Below, piece by piece: positions 3,621 to 45,690 of a DNA stretch of 64,000 nt. Made by a program: the position numbers and the translations under genes. The stretch lies in contig NZ_RJSE01000007.1 in NCBI RefSeq assembly GCF_003725695.1, forward strand, positions 1,428,508 through 1,492,507. Direction: 5' to 3'. Each line of letters starts with the position of its first letter. Positions within the stretch are counted from its first letter, which is position 1. Under the pieces are notes generated by a model. The model had not been told where the DNA came from, did not search any database, and worked only from the letters and a program-made list of their open reading frames with translations. This DNA is from Nocardioides marmoriginsengisoli. Its GTDB lineage: Bacteria > Actinomycetota > Actinomycetes > Propionibacteriales > Nocardioidaceae.

Positions 3621-3648
3621 TTGACATCTAAGTCGAGTGTGTTAGTGT
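3621..3648 (+). promoter_or_regulatory. Sigma70-type promoter of the SAM-IV transcript
   Basis: A perfect TTGACA (3621-3626), a 16-base spacer and TAGTGT (3643-3648) lie directly after the polymerase stop. Transcription would start near 3655, at the first bases of the riboswitch. Confidence 0.65.
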
Positions 3649-3655
3649 TCTTTCA

Positions 3656-3770
3656 ACGTCACGAGTACTGATGCGAAGCCCCGGCTGGTCAGTCGGCAAC
3701 CCTCCTTCCACGGTGGGGTGCCCCGGGTGAGGACGTGGCCTGCTGCGCCGTGCAGTCGGGCAAGCGTGGA
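3656..3770 (+). promoter_or_regulatory. SAM-IV riboswitch
   Basis: The segment carries the order of conserved blocks known for the actinobacterial SAM-IV aptamer: a GTCACGAGT opening, AAGCCCCGGCT, a variable arm, CCGGCAACCCTCC-like text (here CGGCAACCCTCC), GGTGGGGTGCCCCGGGTGA, and a closing pseudoknot-type tail ending GGCAAGCGTGGA. SAM-IV RNAs bind S-adenosylmethionine and repress sulfur-metabolism genes. A GGTCC/GGACC pair (3781-3785 with 3801-3805) closes over the bases just before the GTG start at 3806 and could hide the ribosome site when SAM is bound (inference). Confidence 0.9.
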
Positions 3771-3805
3771 CTCGCCCTCGGGTCCCTGGACGATGGAACC
3801 GGACC

Positions 3806-5122
3806 GTGCCCCTCCAAGAACTTCTCCCCGCCGACCTGCCTGCCGACCCGCAGCTCGCTCCGCTGGCCGCGCTCGTCGGTGCCGACCAGCAGGTGCCGCT
3901 GGTGACCGGCGGTTCGACCCGCTACGTGAACCTCGACTTCGCCGCCAGTGCTCCGGCGCTGACGGCGGTCGCCGACCGGGTGGCGGACTTCCTGCCGTCG
4001 TACTCCAGCGTCCACCGCGGTGCCGGGTACGCGTCGATGGTCAGCACCGCCGCCTACGAGGCGGCCCGTCGGCGGATCGGCGAGTTCGTCGGCGCCCGGG
4101 CCGACGACGTGGTGCAGATCGTCCGCAACACCACCGACGCCTTCGGGCTGCTCGCGTCCGCGGTGCCGGACTGGGGTCCCGGGTCCGTGGTCCACCTCGA
4201 CCTCGAGCACCACGCCAACCTGCTGCCCTGGCAGGCGCTCGGCAGCCGGGTCGTCGCGGCCCGGGAGACGGTGGCGGACACGCTCGCCGCGCTCGAGCAG
4301 GAGCTCGCCCGGAAGCCGGCCGCGCTGCTCGCGGTGACCGGCGCCTCGAACGTGACCGGCGAGGTGCTGCCGCTGGCCGAGCTGACCGCGATCGCGCACC
4401 GGCACGGCGCCCGGATCGCGGTCGACGGCGCCCAGCTGGTCCCGCACCGGCGGATCGACCTGGGCTCCCTCGACCTGGACTACCTCGCGTTCTCCGGGCA
4501 CAAGCTCTACGCGCCATACGGTGCCGGCGTGCTGATCGGTCGCCGGGACTGGCTGGACGCGGCGCCGCCGTACGTGGCCGGCGGGGGAGCGGTCCGCCGG
4601 GTGACGGTCACCCGGACGACCTGGGCCGACGCCCCGGCCCGCCACGAGGGCGGCACCCCGAACGTCGTCGGCGCGGTGGCGCTGGCGGCGGCGTGCGAGG
4701 CTCTCGCCGGGTTGCCCGACGGTGCGCTCGAGCGCCACGAGAGCACGCTCCGGACCCGGCTCGCCGACGGCCTCGGCGGTATCGACGGGGTCCGGCTGCT
4801 GGAGCTCTGGTCCGGTGAGGTCGACGTGGTCGGCCTGGTCACCTTCGTCGTCGACGGCTATCCCGCCGAGCTGGTCGCGCACTACCTCTCCGCCGAGCAC
4901 GGCATCGGCGTCCGGGACGGCCGCTTCTGCGCGCACCCGCTGCTGGACCGGCTCAACGAGGGCCGTACGGCGGTCCGGGCGAGTCTCGGCCTCGGTTCCT
5001 CGGGCTCGGACGTCGACCGGCTGCTCGACGGTGTCCGGGAGCTGGTCGACGCGGGTCCGCGGTGGACCTACGGCGCGGACGGGCTCCCCGCCCCCGACCC
5101 GAGGCCGCTGCCGCCCCTCTGA
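3806..5122 (+). CDS. Class V aminotransferase, cysteine desulfurase (SufS)-like
   Basis: 438 residues, a PLP enzyme of fold type I. VDGAQ (Asp about 207) and SGHKLYAPYG (Schiff-base Lys about 233) are the cofactor sites. A SufS-like catalytic Cys is kept in DGRFCAHP near residue 370, so release of sulfur from cysteine or a related thiol is plausible, although a lyase or aminotransferase role cannot be excluded. The start is a GTG at 3806, 35 bases after the SAM-IV aptamer; the ATG at 3793 is in another frame. It stands apart from any suf operon. SAM-dependent repression suggests a role in sulfur assimilation or cysteine/methionine turnover. Confidence 0.82.
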   Translation: MPLQELLPADLPADPQLAPLAALVGADQQVPLVTGGSTRYVNLDFAASAPALTAVADRVADFLPSYSSVHRGAGYASMVSTAAYEAARRRIGEFVGARADDVVQIVRNTTDAFGLLASAVPDWGPGSVVHLDLEHHANLLPWQALGSRVVAARETVADTLAALEQELARKPAALLAVTGASNVTGEVLPLAELTAIAHRHGARIAVDGAQLVPHRRIDLGSLDLDYLAFSGHKLYAPYGAGVLIGRRDWLDAAPPYVAGGGAVRRVTVTRTTWADAPARHEGGTPNVVGAVALAAACEALAGLPDGALERHESTLRTRLADGLGGIDGVRLLELWSGEVDVVGLVTFVVDGYPAELVAHYLSAEHGIGVRDGRFCAHPLLDRLNEGRTAVRASLGLGSSGSDVDRLLDGVRELVDAGPRWTYGADGLPAPDPRPLPPL

Positions 5123-5226
5123 GGTCCTGCGTCTCCGATTCCGGAATGGACGCGCGTCCGGGGCTCCGATCTGATATCTATAAAGTCACCTAACTTAGTA
5201 AACATAAATGACAAGGAGATCGACCA

Positions 5227-6576
5227 GTGAAGTGGCCGGACCTAGCTGTGCTCGCGGGAGTGGTCGTCGTGTTCGTCGGCCTGCACCTGCTTCGGCGGCG
5301 GCGGACGAACTTCAGCGTGCTGACGCTGATCGCGCTCGCCGTCGGCATCCCGATCGGCCTCCTCGCCCGTGACCACGTGGCGTACATCGAGCCGATCGGA
5401 CGGATCTACATCAACGTCCTGCTCGCCGTGGTGGCGCCGCTGATCGCGGTGGCGATCATCTCCAGCATCGCCTCCCTCGGCAGCATCGACCGGCTCCGCA
5501 CGATCGGCCTGCGCTCGATCGGCTGGCTGCTGCTCAGCAACGCGGTCGCCGTCGTCCTGGCACTCGGCGTCGGACTGGCCTCGGCCACCGGGAGCGGCGT
5601 CGACGAGACCATCGGCGGGCAGCAGCTCTCGGTGCTGCAGAACTCGGTCCAGGACTTCACCCAGGTGGTCGTCGACTTCTTCCCGTCCAACGTGGTCGGC
5701 GACTTCGGGGCCAACCACATCATCCCGGTGATCCTGATCTCGGTAACGGTCGCGATCGCCTACCTGACCCTGGCGGAGCGCGACGCCGCCTCCGTCCGGC
5801 CGTTCCGCGACGGCATCGAGGCGCTGAAGCTGGTCGTCTTCAAGGCCGTCGGCTTCGTGATCGGGCTGACGCCGTACGCGATCGTCGCGCTGACCGCGAC
5901 CGTGGTGGCGAACTCGACCAACCTCGGCGACAAGTTCTGGTCCCTGATCGGGCTCCTCGGCCTGGCCTGGGCGACCTGCTTCGTGCACACCTTCGCGTTC
6001 AACAGCGTGCTGCTCCGGGTCTTCGCGGACGTCTCGCCGACCAGGTTCTTCCGAAAGATCTTCCCGGCGCAGGCGACCGCGTTCTCCACCCAGAGCAGCG
6101 TCGGCACCCTGCCGGTGACGACCGACGTGCTCACCAGGCGGGTCGGCGTGCACCCCGAGATCGCGCACTTCACGGCCCCGCTGGGCACCACGATCGGGAT
6201 GCCCGGGTGCGCCGGGATCTGGCCGATGCTGATCGCGGTCTGGGGGATCAACGCCTACGGGATCGACTACTCCGTGAAGGACTACGTCGTCCTGGCGATC
6301 CTCGGCACGCTGGTCTCGATCGGTACGGCGGGCGTCCCCGGCACCGCGACCGTGGCGGCAGCGACCGTCTTCGCCGCTGCCGGCCTGCCGCTGGACTTCA
6401 TCGCCGTCACGCTCCCGATCAGCACGATCGCCGACATGGCCCGCACCGCGACCAACGTCACCGCGGCGGCGGTCAGCGCCACCATCGTCGCCCGCCAGAC
6501 GGGCCTGCTCGACGACGAGGTCTTCGACGCCGACGAGGCGACCCACCAACCCACCCATCTGTCCACGTCGGCCTGA
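5227..6576 (+). CDS. DAACS-family symporter, TcyP (cystine)-like
   Basis: 449 residues with about eight membrane spans and the re-entrant loop signatures of sodium/dicarboxylate symporters. FSTQSSVGTLPVT and the GMPGCAGIWP loop resemble the corresponding FTSRSSAGAMP and GQNGCAGIYP segments I recall for Bacillus TcyP, an L-cystine importer, more than classical glutamate carriers with SSSAATLP. An AAGGAGA ribosome site precedes the GTG at 5227. The 104-base gap upstream is AT-rich and probably has its own promoter. Its place after a SAM-IV-controlled SufS-like gene and before exported thiol-type proteins favours cystine or another sulfur compound as substrate (inference). Confidence 0.78.
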   Translation: MKWPDLAVLAGVVVVFVGLHLLRRRRTNFSVLTLIALAVGIPIGLLARDHVAYIEPIGRIYINVLLAVVAPLIAVAIISSIASLGSIDRLRTIGLRSIGWLLLSNAVAVVLALGVGLASATGSGVDETIGGQQLSVLQNSVQDFTQVVVDFFPSNVVGDFGANHIIPVILISVTVAIAYLTLAERDAASVRPFRDGIEALKLVVFKAVGFVIGLTPYAIVALTATVVANSTNLGDKFWSLIGLLGLAWATCFVHTFAFNSVLLRVFADVSPTRFFRKIFPAQATAFSTQSSVGTLPVTTDVLTRRVGVHPEIAHFTAPLGTTIGMPGCAGIWPMLIAVWGINAYGIDYSVKDYVVLAILGTLVSIGTAGVPGTATVAAATVFAAAGLPLDFIAVTLPISTIADMARTATNVTAAAVSATIVARQTGLLDDEVFDADEATHQPTHLSTSA

Positions 6577-6605
6577 GCCGGCGACCAACCCATCAGGAGA
6601 AAGCA

Positions 6606-7370
6606 ATGAAGCGCGTCATCCCGGCAGCCCTGGCTGCGACCGTTCTGGCCCTGGCCACGCTTGCGCTGGCCCCGTCGGCCCAGGCGATCACGAACCCCGC
6701 GGACAACCCGCACCCGATCACCGTCAAGGGTGACGACGGGCAGACCTACACCGACGGCGAGGACACCCTGCCCGGGTACGACGACGAGGCCTGCACCTAC
6801 ATCCCGGGGGCCTACTTCGACTTCGACAACAACCGGGTTCGGTACGCCGACGGCCAGTCGATCCCGTGGACCGAGTGGGACCGGGCCACCGGCTACAAGC
6901 AGTGGCTCGCCAAGAAGAACGGCGGCTCCACCGGGGGCTCCACCCCGAAGCCGCCGAAGTCGTCCAGCACCCCGAAGCCGTCCGGCACGTCCAAGCCGTC
7001 GGGCACCAAGTCGCCCACGACGAAGGGCGGCAGTTCGGCGACCGGGTCGACCACCGGCTCCACCCCCGACGCCGGGACCGGAGCCACCGCCGGTGCCACG
7101 CCGACCGACGGCAGCACCCCGGATGCCCAGGCGAAGGGCGCCGCACCGGAGGCCACCGACGGCGCGACCGACGGGTCCATCGACGGGGCCACTGACGGGG
7201 CCACCGACGAGGTCACCCTCGCCGCCGGTTCCAGCGGCGACTCCTCGTCGGCGAAGCAGGGCGGCTCCGGCGCCGGCCTGCTGATCCTCGGCGGTCTCGC
7301 CGGGGCCGGCCTGATCACCTTCGCCGGCTACTCGGTCTTCGGGAAGTCCCGCAAGCCGTCCGCCTCCTGA
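6606..7370 (+). CDS. Exported, C-terminally anchored protein with a single Cys
   Basis: 254 residues. The signal peptide ends at about SAQA-IT. A compact 75-residue head follows (motifs DDGQTYTDGEDTLPGYD and GAYFDFDNNRVRYADG) with the only cysteine of the protein near residue 63, then a long Ser/Thr/Pro/Gly linker with repeated TDGATDG units and one C-terminal membrane span followed by GKSRK. It should therefore sit on the outer face of the cytoplasmic membrane. AGGAGA lies 5 bases before the ATG. I recognise no family. It lies 30 bases after the symporter and 64 before the thioredoxin-like gene, so it is probably part of the same transcript. Confidence 0.8.
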   Translation: MKRVIPAALAATVLALATLALAPSAQAITNPADNPHPITVKGDDGQTYTDGEDTLPGYDDEACTYIPGAYFDFDNNRVRYADGQSIPWTEWDRATGYKQWLAKKNGGSTGGSTPKPPKSSSTPKPSGTSKPSGTKSPTTKGGSSATGSTTGSTPDAGTGATAGATPTDGSTPDAQAKGAAPEATDGATDGSIDGATDGATDEVTLAAGSSGDSSSAKQGGSGAGLLILGGLAGAGLITFAGYSVFGKSRKPSAS

Positions 7371-7434
7371 ACCACCCCTCATCCGAGCACCGCCAACAGA
7401 AGCACCTCACCCGACAGAACAGGAATCCCTTGTC

Positions 7435-9618
7435 ATGAGCACCACCCACCTGCGGCGCCGCCTGGTCGCCGCGACCCTCGGCCTCGCGGTCGCCGGCAGC
7501 CCCCTGGCCGCCGGCGCCCTCGCCGCCACCAGCGGAGCCGCCCCGGTCCGGGGCGCCGCCACCGCGGTCGACACCACCTACCTCTCCGACACCTTCCCGG
7601 GCCTGTCGGCGAGCCCGGTCCTGGAGACGGTCACCTACGACCGCTTCCAGTGGCTGCTCCAGCAGTCCGGCCAGTACGCGTTCCTGATCGGCTCGGCCGC
7701 TGACGCCGACTTCCCGGCCAAGGTGGTCGCCGCCGAGGCCGCAGCCAAGGCAGCGGGTGCGGTCAAGGTCTACTGGTTCGACCCGAACCTGACCGGTCAG
7801 ACCGGGGTCAAGAACCTCGACACCCGCAACCCGGGCGGCATCAACCTGGCGACGGGGTCGCAGACGATCTACGGCAACATCTGGAAGAACGCGCTGGGCC
7901 AGTACCTCGGCAACGGCATCAAGTCGGTGCCGAACGCCGCTCAGACCACCGCCACGGTCAGCGCCGACGACACCGTAGTCAACGACGCGGTCGACCCGCT
8001 GTGGGACTACCGCAGCAGCCCGGCGGCACCGCCGGTGGCGGCAGCCGACGACGTGTTCTTCGTCTACGACAAGGACAACACCTCGGGCGGTCAGGCCGAC
8101 AAGATCGTCAAGGGCGTCAACCTCTCCGCGACCGCCACCGGTTCGGTCGGCACCGCCGTGACGGCGGCGCTCGCCGGCGTCACCGGCGGCGCCGCGGCGA
8201 TCGACCAGCTGGACCAGTTCCACTGGTGGAAGGACGCGGCCAACCGGAAGCACGACCTCTCCTACACCGATGACGCCCGGTACGGCGGCAACATCCTCGA
8301 CGACGCCGACAACGCCGACGGCTGGCGGGTCAAGCAGATCACCTACCCCGAGCTGCTGCACCTGCTGAGCATCAAGGACACCGCGGACAAGAACTTCGTG
8401 CTGCTCTTCGGCGGGACCTGGTGCCACAACACCCGGGCCGTGCTCAAGCACGTGAACGAGGAGGCCCAGGAGAACGGCGTCACCACGGTCTACAACTTCG
8501 ACCTGGTCCTCGACGGCGGCACCACCAACGGCACCAACGGCGGGTCCAACCCGATCCACGTCCGGGACAACGCCAACAGCGGCTCGACCTTCAACTTCCG
8601 TCCGTCGTACGTGTACGGCGACGTGGTCCGGTCCTCGTTCCGCAACCTGGTCACCGAGTACGACCCGAACACCGGGAGCCGGGTCTCCTACTACCCGAAC
8701 GGCGACCTGGCCGCGTTCCCCGACGTGGTCCGCAAGCTCCAGGTGCCGTTCCTGATCAACTACCAGCGCGGGACCGGCACCAACCCGTCGAGCACCGCCG
8801 TGAAGCGGCAGTGGATCCAGCAGAACCTGGACGCCTCGACCGGCCTGCCGACCTTCCGGGAGTACATGTCTGAGTGGTGGTTCACCAAGCCGTCGGCGCA
8901 GCTCGGCCTGAGCTTCCCGATCCCGGCCGACGAGTCCACGCTGACCGCTCCGCAGGCCACCCAGCTCTCCCAGGCGCGCGACAACGTGACGTTCGCCCAG
9001 GACGCGCTGGCCAAGCTGGACGACTTCTTCGGCGGGCTCCCGGGCGCGGTCGTCTCCACCCAGACGGTGACGGCTCCGACGGTCGCCTACGGCACGGCGC
9101 CGAAGATCACGGTGGCGATCGCCAACAAGTTCGGCCGGCTCCCCGCAGGCACCGCCACCCTCACGGTCGGCGGGGCGTCGTACCCGGTGCAGGTCGCGCA
9201 GAACGCGGCGGTCTTCACCGTGGCCAAGCTGGTGCCGGGCTCGTACCCGTTCACGGTCAGCTACGCCGGTGACGACCAGATCGTGTCGTTCTCCAAGGCC
9301 GGAACGCTGACCGTTGCCAAGGCGAAGGCCAAGGCTTCGGGCGCCGCGGTGAAGGTGCCGACCTCGAAGAAGGCCGGTACCTACAAGGTGACGGTGGCGA
9401 CCCCGGCCGGCCTGGTCAAGGCCACCGGCAAGGTGACCTTGACGCTCAGCAAGGGTGCCGCGAAGAAGAAGGTCGTCGGCACCCTGAAGGCCGGCGTCGT
9501 GACCGTCACGGTGCCGAAGCTGGCCAAGGGCGGCTGGAAGGTCGCGATCGGGTACGCGGGTGACGCCAAGTACCTGGCGGCCACCGCCGCGGGCAAGGCG
9601 ATCACCGTCAAGCGCTAG
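7435..9618 (+). CDS. Secreted protein with two thioredoxin-like segments and C-terminal Ig-like domains
   Basis: 727 residues with an Arg-rich signal peptide cleaved near residues 30-40. Residues about 60-130 look like a thioredoxin fold without active cysteines (QYAFLIGSAADADFP). Residues about 320-380 look like a second one with FVLLFGGTWCHNT, where CxxC is reduced to a lone Cys (about residue 330). That is the only cysteine in the whole protein. The last 180 residues form Ig-like repeats (SYAGDD, GYAGDAKYLA) typical of surface-exposed proteins. A monothiol site could form mixed disulfides with substrates or with the single-Cys protein encoded just upstream. Fold assignments are from motif reading only. 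Confidence 0.72.
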   Translation: MSTTHLRRRLVAATLGLAVAGSPLAAGALAATSGAAPVRGAATAVDTTYLSDTFPGLSASPVLETVTYDRFQWLLQQSGQYAFLIGSAADADFPAKVVAAEAAAKAAGAVKVYWFDPNLTGQTGVKNLDTRNPGGINLATGSQTIYGNIWKNALGQYLGNGIKSVPNAAQTTATVSADDTVVNDAVDPLWDYRSSPAAPPVAAADDVFFVYDKDNTSGGQADKIVKGVNLSATATGSVGTAVTAALAGVTGGAAAIDQLDQFHWWKDAANRKHDLSYTDDARYGGNILDDADNADGWRVKQITYPELLHLLSIKDTADKNFVLLFGGTWCHNTRAVLKHVNEEAQENGVTTVYNFDLVLDGGTTNGTNGGSNPIHVRDNANSGSTFNFRPSYVYGDVVRSSFRNLVTEYDPNTGSRVSYYPNGDLAAFPDVVRKLQVPFLINYQRGTGTNPSSTAVKRQWIQQNLDASTGLPTFREYMSEWWFTKPSAQLGLSFPIPADESTLTAPQATQLSQARDNVTFAQDALAKLDDFFGGLPGAVVSTQTVTAPTVAYGTAPKITVAIANKFGRLPAGTATLTVGGASYPVQVAQNAAVFTVAKLVPGSYPFTVSYAGDDQIVSFSKAGTLTVAKAKAKASGAAVKVPTSKKAGTYKVTVATPAGLVKATGKVTLTLSKGAAKKKVVGTLKAGVVTVTVPKLAKGGWKVAIGYAGDAKYLAATAAGKAITVKR

Positions 9619-9630
9619 CTGCGGCCCAGC

Positions 9631-9672
9631 AAGAGAGAAGGTTGCCTGGCGAGCCAGGTAACCTTCTCTCTT
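9631..9672 (+). terminator. 19-bp hairpin ending exactly at the prfB start codon
   Basis: The arms 9631-9649 and 9654-9672 pair over 19 bp with one G-U and a CGAG loop. There is no U-run after it: the next base begins the GTG of prfB. It probably ends the upstream transcript, but it also leaves no Shine-Dalgarno site for prfB. Confidence 0.65.
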
Positions 9673-10785
9673 GTGGCTACACGCGACTACGACTCCGAGA
9701 TCAAGCAGCTCCAGGCGACCATGGGCACGATCGGCAAGGTGCTCGACCTCGACGCCATGCGGGTGGAGATCGCGAGCCTGGGCGAAGACGTCGCCGACCC
9801 GAACCTGTGGGACGACCAGGCCAACGCCCAGCGCGTGACCGGCCGGCTCTCCACGCTGCAGGGCGAGCTCGACCGCTTCACCGCGCTGAGCACCCGGCTC
9901 GAGGACGTGGAGCTGATGTTCGAAATGGCGACCGAGGAGGCGGACGAGTCCGCGCTGGCGGACGCCGACTACGAGCTGGACCGGATCGCCAAGGCGGTCG
10001 AGACCCTCGAGGTCCGCACCCTGCTCTCCGGCGAGTACGACGCCCGCGAGGCGATCGTCAGCCTCCGGGCCGGCGCGGGCGGCGTCGATGCCGCCGACTT
10101 CACCGAGATGCTGATGCGGATGTACACCCGCTGGGCCGAGCGCAACGGCTACCCGGTCGAGGTCTTCGACACCTCGTACGCCGAGGAGGCCGGCCTGAAG
10201 TCCGCGACCTTCGCGGTGCACGCGCCGTACGCCTACGGGACGCTCTCGGTCGAGGCCGGCACCCACCGCCTGGTCCGGATCAGCCCGTTCGACAACCAGG
10301 GCCGCCGGCAGACCAGCTTCGCCGCGGTCGAGGTGGTCCCGGTGCTGGAGCAGACCGACGAGATCGACATCCCCGACGAGGACATCCGGGTCGACGTGTA
10401 CAGGTCGGGCGGCCCCGGCGGCCAGTCGGTCAACACCACCGACTCCGCGGTCCGGCTGACCCACCTGCCGACCGGCGTCGTGGTGTCCTGCCAGAACGAG
10501 AAGTCGCAGCTGCAGAACAAGGCCTCCGCGATGGTGGTCCTGAAGGCCAAGCTGCTCGCCCTGAAGAAGGCCGAGGAGAAGGCGCACCTCGACGAGCTCA
10601 AGGGCGACGTCCAGGCCAGCTGGGGCGACCAGATGCGCAACTACGTGCTGAACCCTTACCAGATGGTCAAGGACCTGCGCACCGAGTACGAGTCCGGCAA
10701 CCCGCAGTCCGTCCTGGACGGCGACATCGACGCCTTCCTGGAGGCCGGGATCCGCTGGCGCCGCGGGGCCGAGCTGAAGGACTGA
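9673..10785 (+). CDS. prfB: Peptide chain release factor 2
   Basis: 370 residues, the normal length. Recognises UAA and UGA in the ribosomal A site and triggers peptidyl-tRNA hydrolysis. The SPF stop-codon reading motif is in [11 protein letters not shown] and the catalytic GGQ in [11 protein letters not shown]. The frame is continuous from GTG at 9673, so the autoregulatory +1 frameshift of Escherichia coli prfB is absent. It opens the group prfB ... ftsE-ftsX-M23-smpB found in many actinobacteria. Translation initiation is unusual because the start codon abuts a strong hairpin. Confidence 0.97.
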
Positions 10786-19011: not shown

Positions 19012-19380
19012 GGGGCTGATTGGTTTCGACTAGGGACGTTAGTCCCAGGAGAAGCGGGTCGAGAAGCCAACGTCATCTCGTAAACGTTCGTTGGAAACCT
19101 ATAACTGCCAACAACACTCGCAGTTCCTTCGCTCTCGCTGCCTGAGCAGTGATCGAAGCGTCAGACTGGGCATCCGCCTTCGTCCCAGATCCTGGCGTCA
19201 TCCAGAAGGCTTGCTGATCAACTTCCGCGGGGAGGGTTGATCGGGACTTAATCCCGGCTGAGCCCGTCGGCGCACGTGTCTGTGCAAGCGCCGGGGCCGA
19301 GAAACACGCCATTGCAGACTGCACCCGGAGAAGACCTGGTACGGCGCTCAAGGACGCGGGTTCGATTCCCGCCAGCTCCA
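19012..19380 (+). ncRNA. ssrA: Transfer-messenger RNA (tmRNA)
   Basis: Begins GGGGCTGATTGGTTTCGAC, the diagnostic 5' end, and ends with a tRNA-like half (GGTTCGATTCCCGCCAGCTCC plus A, written here as the T-arm GGTTCGATTCC and acceptor strand). The CCA tail is not fully encoded (ACC then C). The tag frame at 19107-19145 reads ANNTRSSFALAA then TGA; with the Ala carried by tmRNA itself the degradation tag is A-ANNTRSSFALAA, ending in the usual ALAA. It rescues stalled ribosomes together with SmpB. A TAGACT -10 box lies at 18989-18994. Confidence 0.97.
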
Positions 19381-19422
19381 CCCAGCCGGGCCGGCGGCGA
19401 CGCCGGCTCCAGCCCTCTTGAA

Positions 19423-45594: not shown

Positions 45595-45690
45595 CGCGCA
45601 GGGGAAGCCGGTCCGATGCCGGCGCTGACCCGCAGCCGTAGGTCGCCGGAAGCCCGGCGACGAGCCGGAACACCTGAGCGCTCGGTACGG
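45595..45690 (+). promoter_or_regulatory. Cobalamin riboswitch (aptamer)
   Basis: Conserved blocks in order: GCGCAGGGGAAGCCGGT, CCGGCGCTGACCCGCAGCCGTA (read as CCGGCGCTGACCCGCA then GCCGTA), and the B12 box GAGCCGGAACACCTG near 45662-45676. It begins at the hmgA stop and precedes an ECF transporter operon, the usual context. Binding of a cobalamin should switch the operon off. Confidence 0.9.

Follow-up and report, generated by a model that had tools for sequence, protein, structure and literature searches.

What joins a TcyP-like symporter gene, two genes for exported proteins with a single cysteine each, and a neighboring enzyme gene preceded by a SAM-IV riboswitch? The locus that raises this question lies in the first 10 kb of a 64,000-nucleotide stretch of Nocardioides marmoriginsengisoli DNA (GCF_003725695.1, NZ_RJSE01000007.1:1,428,508-1,492,507, forward strand; hereafter the window), where the riboswitch is followed by four genes, all on the plus strand. 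The first encodes a pyridoxal phosphate (PLP) enzyme, and the other three, which we call the trio, encode the symporter, a small membrane-anchored protein and a large secreted protein. We found that the trio is conserved as a unit and that in the Nocardioidaceae it occurs together with the PLP enzyme. We tentatively read it as an uptake module of cyst(e)ine type whose surface proteins would be joined by a disulfide, coupled in this family to the SAM-IV-associated enzyme, and give this reading a probability of about 0.42.

A conserved three-gene module

We searched samples of close relatives, the family, the class and the phylum, and genome contigs, for proteins related to the large protein. 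These searches yielded 18 distinct loci, the window included, in which the trio is found with the large-protein motif. Loci that had been retrieved twice were counted once (L098/L008, L100/L013 and L015/L009), and L105, from genome G752, was dropped because it is a partial large-protein match that lacks the motif and has no symporter match nearby or at E<=1e-60 in its genome. The order symporter, small protein, large protein is kept in 17 of the 18 loci; in the remaining one (G594) the trio is split by a contig end, with the symporter gene on another contig next to the PLP gene. Of 197 family genomes, assigned to the Nocardioidaceae from the named records among them, 14 encode the symporter (E<=1e-60), and the same 14 encode the large protein in full. 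Outside the family, the trio occurs in a Leucobacter metagenome-assembled genome (MAG; L010), in Demequina (L012), in a Solirubrobacterales MAG (L011) and in a member of another family of the same class (L047).

The trio is rare in actinobacteria. It was found in 3 of 58 genomes in the sample of relatives, in 7 of 394 in the class sample (profile search; the count includes the own genome and a match in G483 that, at E 9e-4, we regard as due to chance), and in 1 of 296 in the phylum sample, where a single-sequence query returned the window's own genome. A plasmid collection gave no match, and a literature search, mostly at the level of titles and the beginnings of abstracts, returned nothing that we recognized as the trio. 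In the Demequina draft, the symporter and large genes (L012:5371-10006) run through several frames, probably because of sequencing errors; this frame-shifted locus was excluded from the cysteine count and the trees described below, and the enzyme and symporter of G594 were excluded from the trees.

Symporter and exported proteins

The symporter matches PF00375 with 312.5 bits against a gathering score of 27.9. BLASTP against Escherichia coli gave 159 bits (33% identity) for TcyP, 105 for GltP and 83 for DctA, with SstT compared by alignment only, and a motif alignment revealed GCAG and Asp-Arg motifs common to the trio symporter and TcyP. Among the relatives compared, these alignments put the symporter on the side of TcyP, and its substrate may then be cystine.

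Apart from immunoglobulin (Ig)-like repeats at the C terminus of the large protein, neither exported protein has a family match above cut-off. The repeats (PF16640, 46 bits) fall in two stretches, the best at residues 545-627, and similar ones are encoded at three other places in the genome. Ahead of them the large protein carries tandem thioredoxin folds, of which domain 1 is free of cysteine and domain 2 has WCxNT where thioredoxin has WCxxC. Aligned with hhalign, domain 2 matches domain 1 with prob 98.2 and E 2.7e-14, and matches TrxA of the same genome with E 5.9e-4 but prob only 29, with WCHNTR falling on WCGPCR. The structural matches listed for the large protein are thioredoxins and their kin, and effectively cover domain 1 alone. 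No Pfam thioredoxin model scored above cut-off in 12 members (best Thioredoxin_9, E 0.07, in one member), and a search of PDB sequences with the large-protein profile gave an unrelated binding protein as its best match (E 0.17), with thioredoxins at a non-significant 0.7 to 0.84. WCxNTR is present in all 12 aligned large proteins, and none of them has the CxxC active site.

In the large protein, paired or triple arginines precede the N-terminal hydrophobic stretch in the window (7435-7500) and at the same place in L008, L014, L045, L047 and L099. These N termini are possibly twin-arginine translocation (Tat) signals, in which case the thiol domain would be exported folded and reduced. In L047 the large protein (5768-7645, minus strand) ends with LADTG, a hydrophobic segment and an arginine-containing tail that resemble a sortase-type anchor; such a tail is absent from the 16 other large-protein ends compared (L011 is cut by a contig end).

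The small protein consists of a signal peptide, a conserved domain of ~75 residues, a low-complexity linker and a C-terminal membrane anchor, with no Pfam or NCBIfam match. A low-confidence model of the domain (predicted local distance difference test (pLDDT) 68.8, predicted template modeling score (pTM) 0.55) is mostly beta with one helix and is not evidently thioredoxin-like. Within the window's clade the protein is recognizable by sequence. For clade 2 (L013, L043-L046, L101, L103 and L104) and L047 the assignment used its position, signal, single membrane anchor and cysteine pattern.

In the window, the single cysteine of the small protein is Cys63 (codon 6792-6794). The mature large protein has exactly one cysteine in all 17 pairs counted, and the small protein always has an odd number (one in 8 loci, three in 9), so that the two partners together have an even number in 17/17. 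The count leaves aside further cysteines downstream of the small-gene stop codon in L043 and L101 and two before the homologous start of the large open reading frame (ORF) in L103; the end chosen for the small gene of L009 passes its stop, and that of L044 is cut by a contig end. Because a bond between the partners needs the even sum, which is no proof of it, the counts suggest a disulfide between the small and large proteins. The 17 loci fall into two main clades and are thus not 17 independent cases.

The riboswitch-enzyme unit and its link to the trio

The aptamer matches the SAM-IV covariance model (RF00634) with 99.7 bits against a gathering threshold of 38. The promoter-like TTGACA ... 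TAGTGT stretch 5' of it is found identically 5' of SAM-IV in L014; a strict consensus promoter scan was negative for this stretch (3621..3656), and folding of the RNA at 3657-3830 gave a stability not above that of shuffled sequences (z +1.5). The PLP enzyme scores 283.2 bits against the sufS model TIGR01979, under its curated NCBIfam cut-off of 475.1, and is therefore named SufS-like only. SGHK, with the PLP lysine, and FCAHP, with the active-site cysteine, are present in 14/14 aligned enzymes.

The enzyme is encoded in 41/41 sampled Streptomyces-like genomes (genus assigned by inference), and SAM-IV lies 5' of its gene in all 12 checked. The trio is in none of the three Streptomyces-like PLP-gene neighborhoods read, and none of the 7 genomes of this genus in the phylum sample has a large-protein match with the single-sequence query. 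In Streptomyces lividans, SAM-IV has been reported upstream of the cysteine desulfurase gene SLIV_26975 (PMC8079986); passages of another report mention no desulfurase (PMC3766115). Because the pair is common in Streptomyces-like genomes, adjoins no trio in the three neighborhoods read and has been published for S. lividans, SAM-IV and the PLP enzyme form a separate, ordinary unit to which the trio is an addition.

In the Nocardioidaceae, the enzyme (E<=1e-90) is found in 12 of the 14 trio genomes and in 0 of the 183 others. Fisher tests that ignore kinship gave p 1.8e-17 for enzyme against trio and 7e-11 for SAM-IV against trio. A scan with stricter filters, in which weak matches are lost, found SAM-IV above threshold in 19/197 genomes of the family. 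It lies just 5' of the enzyme gene in 11 of the 12 enzyme genomes and was not found there for G482; the remaining 8 SAM-IV genomes have neither trio nor PLP enzyme, with no tblastn match to the enzyme within ~1.5 kb of their aptamers. The trio adjoins the PLP unit in 10 of the 12 enzyme genomes, co-directionally in four (the window, G007, G019 and G841) and divergently in six (G790, G656, G680, G777, G779 and G594). In G482 and G830 the enzyme gene lies on a different contig from the trio, so that the link is not one of adjacency alone. In G830 the SAM-IV PLP gene sits between two genes (L107:4991-8642) that resemble those for protoporphyrinogen oxidase and HemQ.

The Aeromicrobium endophyticum locus (L008) offers evidence that depends less on kinship than the Fisher tests do. 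Its PLP enzyme clusters with the enzymes of L103, L046, L104 and L045 (77% identity with L103, 58% with the window), whereas its symporter groups with that of the window (81%, against 54% for L103) and its large protein is likewise closer to the window (76% against 35%). The approximately unbiased (AU) test gave p 0.0003 against grouping the enzyme with the window's clade and p 3e-78 against placing the symporter in clade 2, values that are generous because the tested clades were named after a first quick tree had been seen; the symporter tree also carries a long-branch warning for L047. The simplest reading of these histories is that one trio replaced another while the SAM-IV enzyme next to it stayed in place. 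The same locus has a cobalamin riboswitch adjoining the SAM-IV enzyme (L008:3664-3846), followed by two genes that by eye resemble parts of an ABC importer for a metal or B12, one its substrate-binding protein and the other its permease.

An earlier note on this DNA had described a SAM-IV-led sulfur module, and its inventory of features holds: the riboswitch, a SufS-like enzyme with its active-site cysteine, which is of class V and also keeps its lysine, two exported one-cysteine proteins, two thioredoxin-like segments that prove to be tandem folds, and a symporter that, of three E. coli relatives compared, comes closest to TcyP. The proposed tie between transporter and enzyme is supported by the co-occurrence within the family. 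The leading role given to the riboswitch is not, because SAM-IV precedes the PLP gene, occurs with it elsewhere without an adjoining trio, and cannot head the trio mRNA where the two units diverge. A single five-gene operon headed by SAM-IV is accordingly rejected, since 6 of the 10 trios that adjoin the PLP gene point away from it. The note had also expected homologs of the exported proteins beside SAM-IV or transporter genes, and here the outcome is mixed: they always accompany the transporter, whereas SAM-IV adjoins them in 10 of the 18 loci. The riboswitch-enzyme pair is ordinary, and the trio that attaches itself to it is an undescribed module.

Table 1 Features of the N. marmoriginsengisoli locus, in window positions
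Feature	Position	Strand	Evidence or remark
Promoter-like stretch TTGACA ... TAGTGT	3621..3656	+	5' of riboswitch; from sequence
SAM-IV riboswitch aptamer	3657..3772	+	RF00634, 99.7 bits, E 4.4e-17
Class-V PLP enzyme, SufS/cysteine-desulfurase-like	3806..5122	+	Aminotran_5 269 bits; active-site Cys and Lys
A+T-rich gap 5' of trio, candidate trio promoter region	5140..5226	+	
SDF/DAACS symporter, TcyP side, core gene 1	5227..6576	+	PF00375 312 bits; GMPGCAG, DMARTxxNV
Small exported protein, core gene 2	6606..7370	+	Translation; signal peptide, C-terminal membrane anchor
Large exported protein, 727 residues, core gene 3	7435..9618	+	Two thioredoxin-fold domains and Ig-like repeats
Thioredoxin-fold domain 1, residues ~50-252, Cys-free	7582..8190	+	
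Thioredoxin-like domain 2, FGGTWC330HNTR	8308..8886	+	Cys codon 8422-8424
Ig-like C-terminal repeats (Big_3_5)	9067..9615	+	PF16640 46 bits
Strong hairpin, probable transcript end	9626..9676	+	-39.9 kcal/mol

The G+C content of 5121-5230 is 0.50, compared with 0.71 in the surrounding region. Because of this low value and the divergent trios of relatives, the A+T-rich gap upstream of the trio (Table 1) is a candidate for the trio's own promoter region; in the window itself, transcripts might still read through from SAM-IV into the trio. The hairpin after the large gene probably marks the end of the transcript: its stability (z -8.2) was matched by 0/200 shuffles, and it is absent from the output of a terminator scan. 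Downstream of it, the ORF at 9673 is presumably a prfB-like gene. Elsewhere in the window are a cobalamin riboswitch aptamer (45602-45674; 36.3 bits, a partial model match) and a tmRNA gene (19012-19383) with the tag ANNTRSSFALAA.

Upstream of the symporter gene, a half-site, RTCTCANNATNNGGAC, is present in L046, L103, L104, L008 and L013 and is not evident in the window. It is a possible operator of an unlinked regulator, and in L046, L103 and L104 a second, weaker copy lies 20 bp away on the opposite strand. Matches cover 12/12 positions in L046, L103 and L104 and 11/12 in both L008 and L013. The best match in the window is 9/12, equalled by 10% of shuffles, and the remaining 10 of the 16 regions reach 7 to 9. 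The shuffle values are circular because the half-site was derived by eye from these same regions, mainly L046, L103 and L104. We make no claim for RTCTCANNATNNGGAC as a common trio operator that includes the window. A SigR-type trio promoter was likewise set aside, since by eye it fits loosely in L009 only.

Proposed function, alternatives and known systems

A symporter, an anchored protein and a thioredoxin-fold surface protein that are inherited together, the latter two each with an odd number of cysteines, point to import that is coupled to thiol chemistry at the surface. In the mechanism that we propose, a TcyP-type symporter would work with the membrane-tethered small protein and the secreted two-thioredoxin-domain protein. 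Because WCxNT lacks a second, resolving cysteine, the cysteine of the large protein would most likely enter a mixed disulfide that lasts, its foremost partner being the free cysteine of the small protein; tethered in this way, the large protein would stay above the symporter at the cell surface. Exchange of thiols there with cystine or other sulfur-bearing disulfides, whichever its direction, could then feed the symporter. In the Nocardioidaceae the neighboring PLP enzyme would use the imported cyst(e)ine, freeing sulfur for synthesis of methionine and S-adenosylmethionine (SAM), and SAM-IV presumably turns the enzyme up when SAM is low.

Several observations weigh against this reading. The symporter is only 33% identical to TcyP; the symporter of a trio-less genome of the same genus (L028, in G002) scores 164 bits against that of the window, so that the TcyP bit score does not single TcyP out; and in the L047 symporter the substrate motif has lost its conserved Asp and Arg. 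The small-protein fold model is weak (pLDDT 69), and the small proteins of clade 2 and L047 have no BLAST match to that of the window. In 8 of the 18 loci (L010, L011, L012, L013, L043, L047, L101 and L102) the DNA read around the trio, in some cases a short contig, holds neither SAM-IV nor the PLP gene, with the enzyme encoded elsewhere in the genome for L043 and L102. All 41 Streptomyces-like genomes have the enzyme, and the three neighborhoods read there contain no trio, which indicates that the enzyme does not need it. Finally, no thiol-disulfide reductase was seen among the other genes of the stretch. Together with CxxT in place of CxxC, this makes a mixed disulfide fit better than reduction, and the earlier proposal that the exported proteins reduce extracellular disulfides is correspondingly weak.

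Some of the same observations could mean that the trio, though a genuine module for uptake or for the surface, serves a sulfur-free substrate such as an amino acid or dicarboxylate, with the cysteines only a tether and the PLP enzyme a lineage-favored neighbor. The SDF family is broad, TcyP is distant, the L047 symporter is without the Asp/Arg pair, 2 of the 14 trio genomes of the family lack the enzyme at E<=1e-90, and it is not in the stretches, the only part searched, of the four loci outside the family. Against this, the enzyme follows the trio in 12 of 14 genomes and in 0 of 183 without it, unlinked in two, and in L008 adjacency was kept despite the different histories of trio and enzyme. 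We regard a sulfur-free substrate as an unlikely, if serious, alternative. That the two units are only chance neighbors in a few genomes of one family seems improbable: their divergence in six loci, p-values blind to kinship and the Streptomyces-like enzyme without an adjoining trio would fit such an arrangement, but not the absence of the enzyme (at E<=1e-90) from all 183 trio-less family genomes, nor adjacency in both orientations that persisted in L008. Glutathione peroxidases, too, have CxxT spacing in their active site, and domain 2 might be a monothiol peroxidase or redox sensor in surface thiol defense or sensing, with the symporter supplying cystine for a cysteine/cystine shuttle. E. 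coli uses such a shuttle against peroxide (PMC4383340). The structural matches are instead thioredoxins and their kin, effectively for domain 1 only, and no peroxidase was among the Pfam and NCBIfam matches, which makes this role very unlikely.

How, then, would a cyst(e)ine-type uptake module compare with known systems? To our knowledge, TcyP works without exported partner proteins, and SDF carriers in general are described as doing so. The trio symporter shares with E. coli TcyP/YdjN its SDF family, GCAG motif and DMxRTxxNV motif, and differs in its 33% identity and in having GMPGCAG for GQNGCAG. YdjN/TcyP imports cystine (PMC4383340), in line with its annotation. The riboswitch-enzyme unit resembles the Streptomyces SAM-IV-desulfurase pair in riboswitch class and in an enzyme ~50% identical, a likeness drawn from Streptomyces-like enzymes and not from SLIV_26975 itself; it differs in that no symporter or exported proteins adjoin the Streptomyces-like gene (3/3 neighborhoods read). 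The large protein shares the thioredoxin fold with TrxA, and both this fold and a single cysteine of CxxS/CxxT type with AGR2 and ERp44, proteins of the protein disulfide isomerase family in which that cysteine can hold mixed disulfides. Unlike all three, it is an exported bacterial tandem with a cysteine-free first domain, an Ig-like tail and no significant Pfam thioredoxin match. We know of no bacterial secondary carrier with covalent capture at the surface, and a heteromeric cystine importer that has a disulfide-locked extracellular part and, ahead of transport, takes hold of its substrate through thiol-disulfide exchange is a bold and quite unlikely extension of the proposal. Its nearest functional parallel is the disulfide-linked cystine exchanger of animals, formed by 4F2hc (SLC3A2) and xCT (SLC7A11) (cf. 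PMC10698284). No homology is claimed, and here the disulfide would join two exported proteins and not carrier and partner; what the two would have in common is the way of working, in which a disulfide secures an extracellular partner of a cystine carrier.

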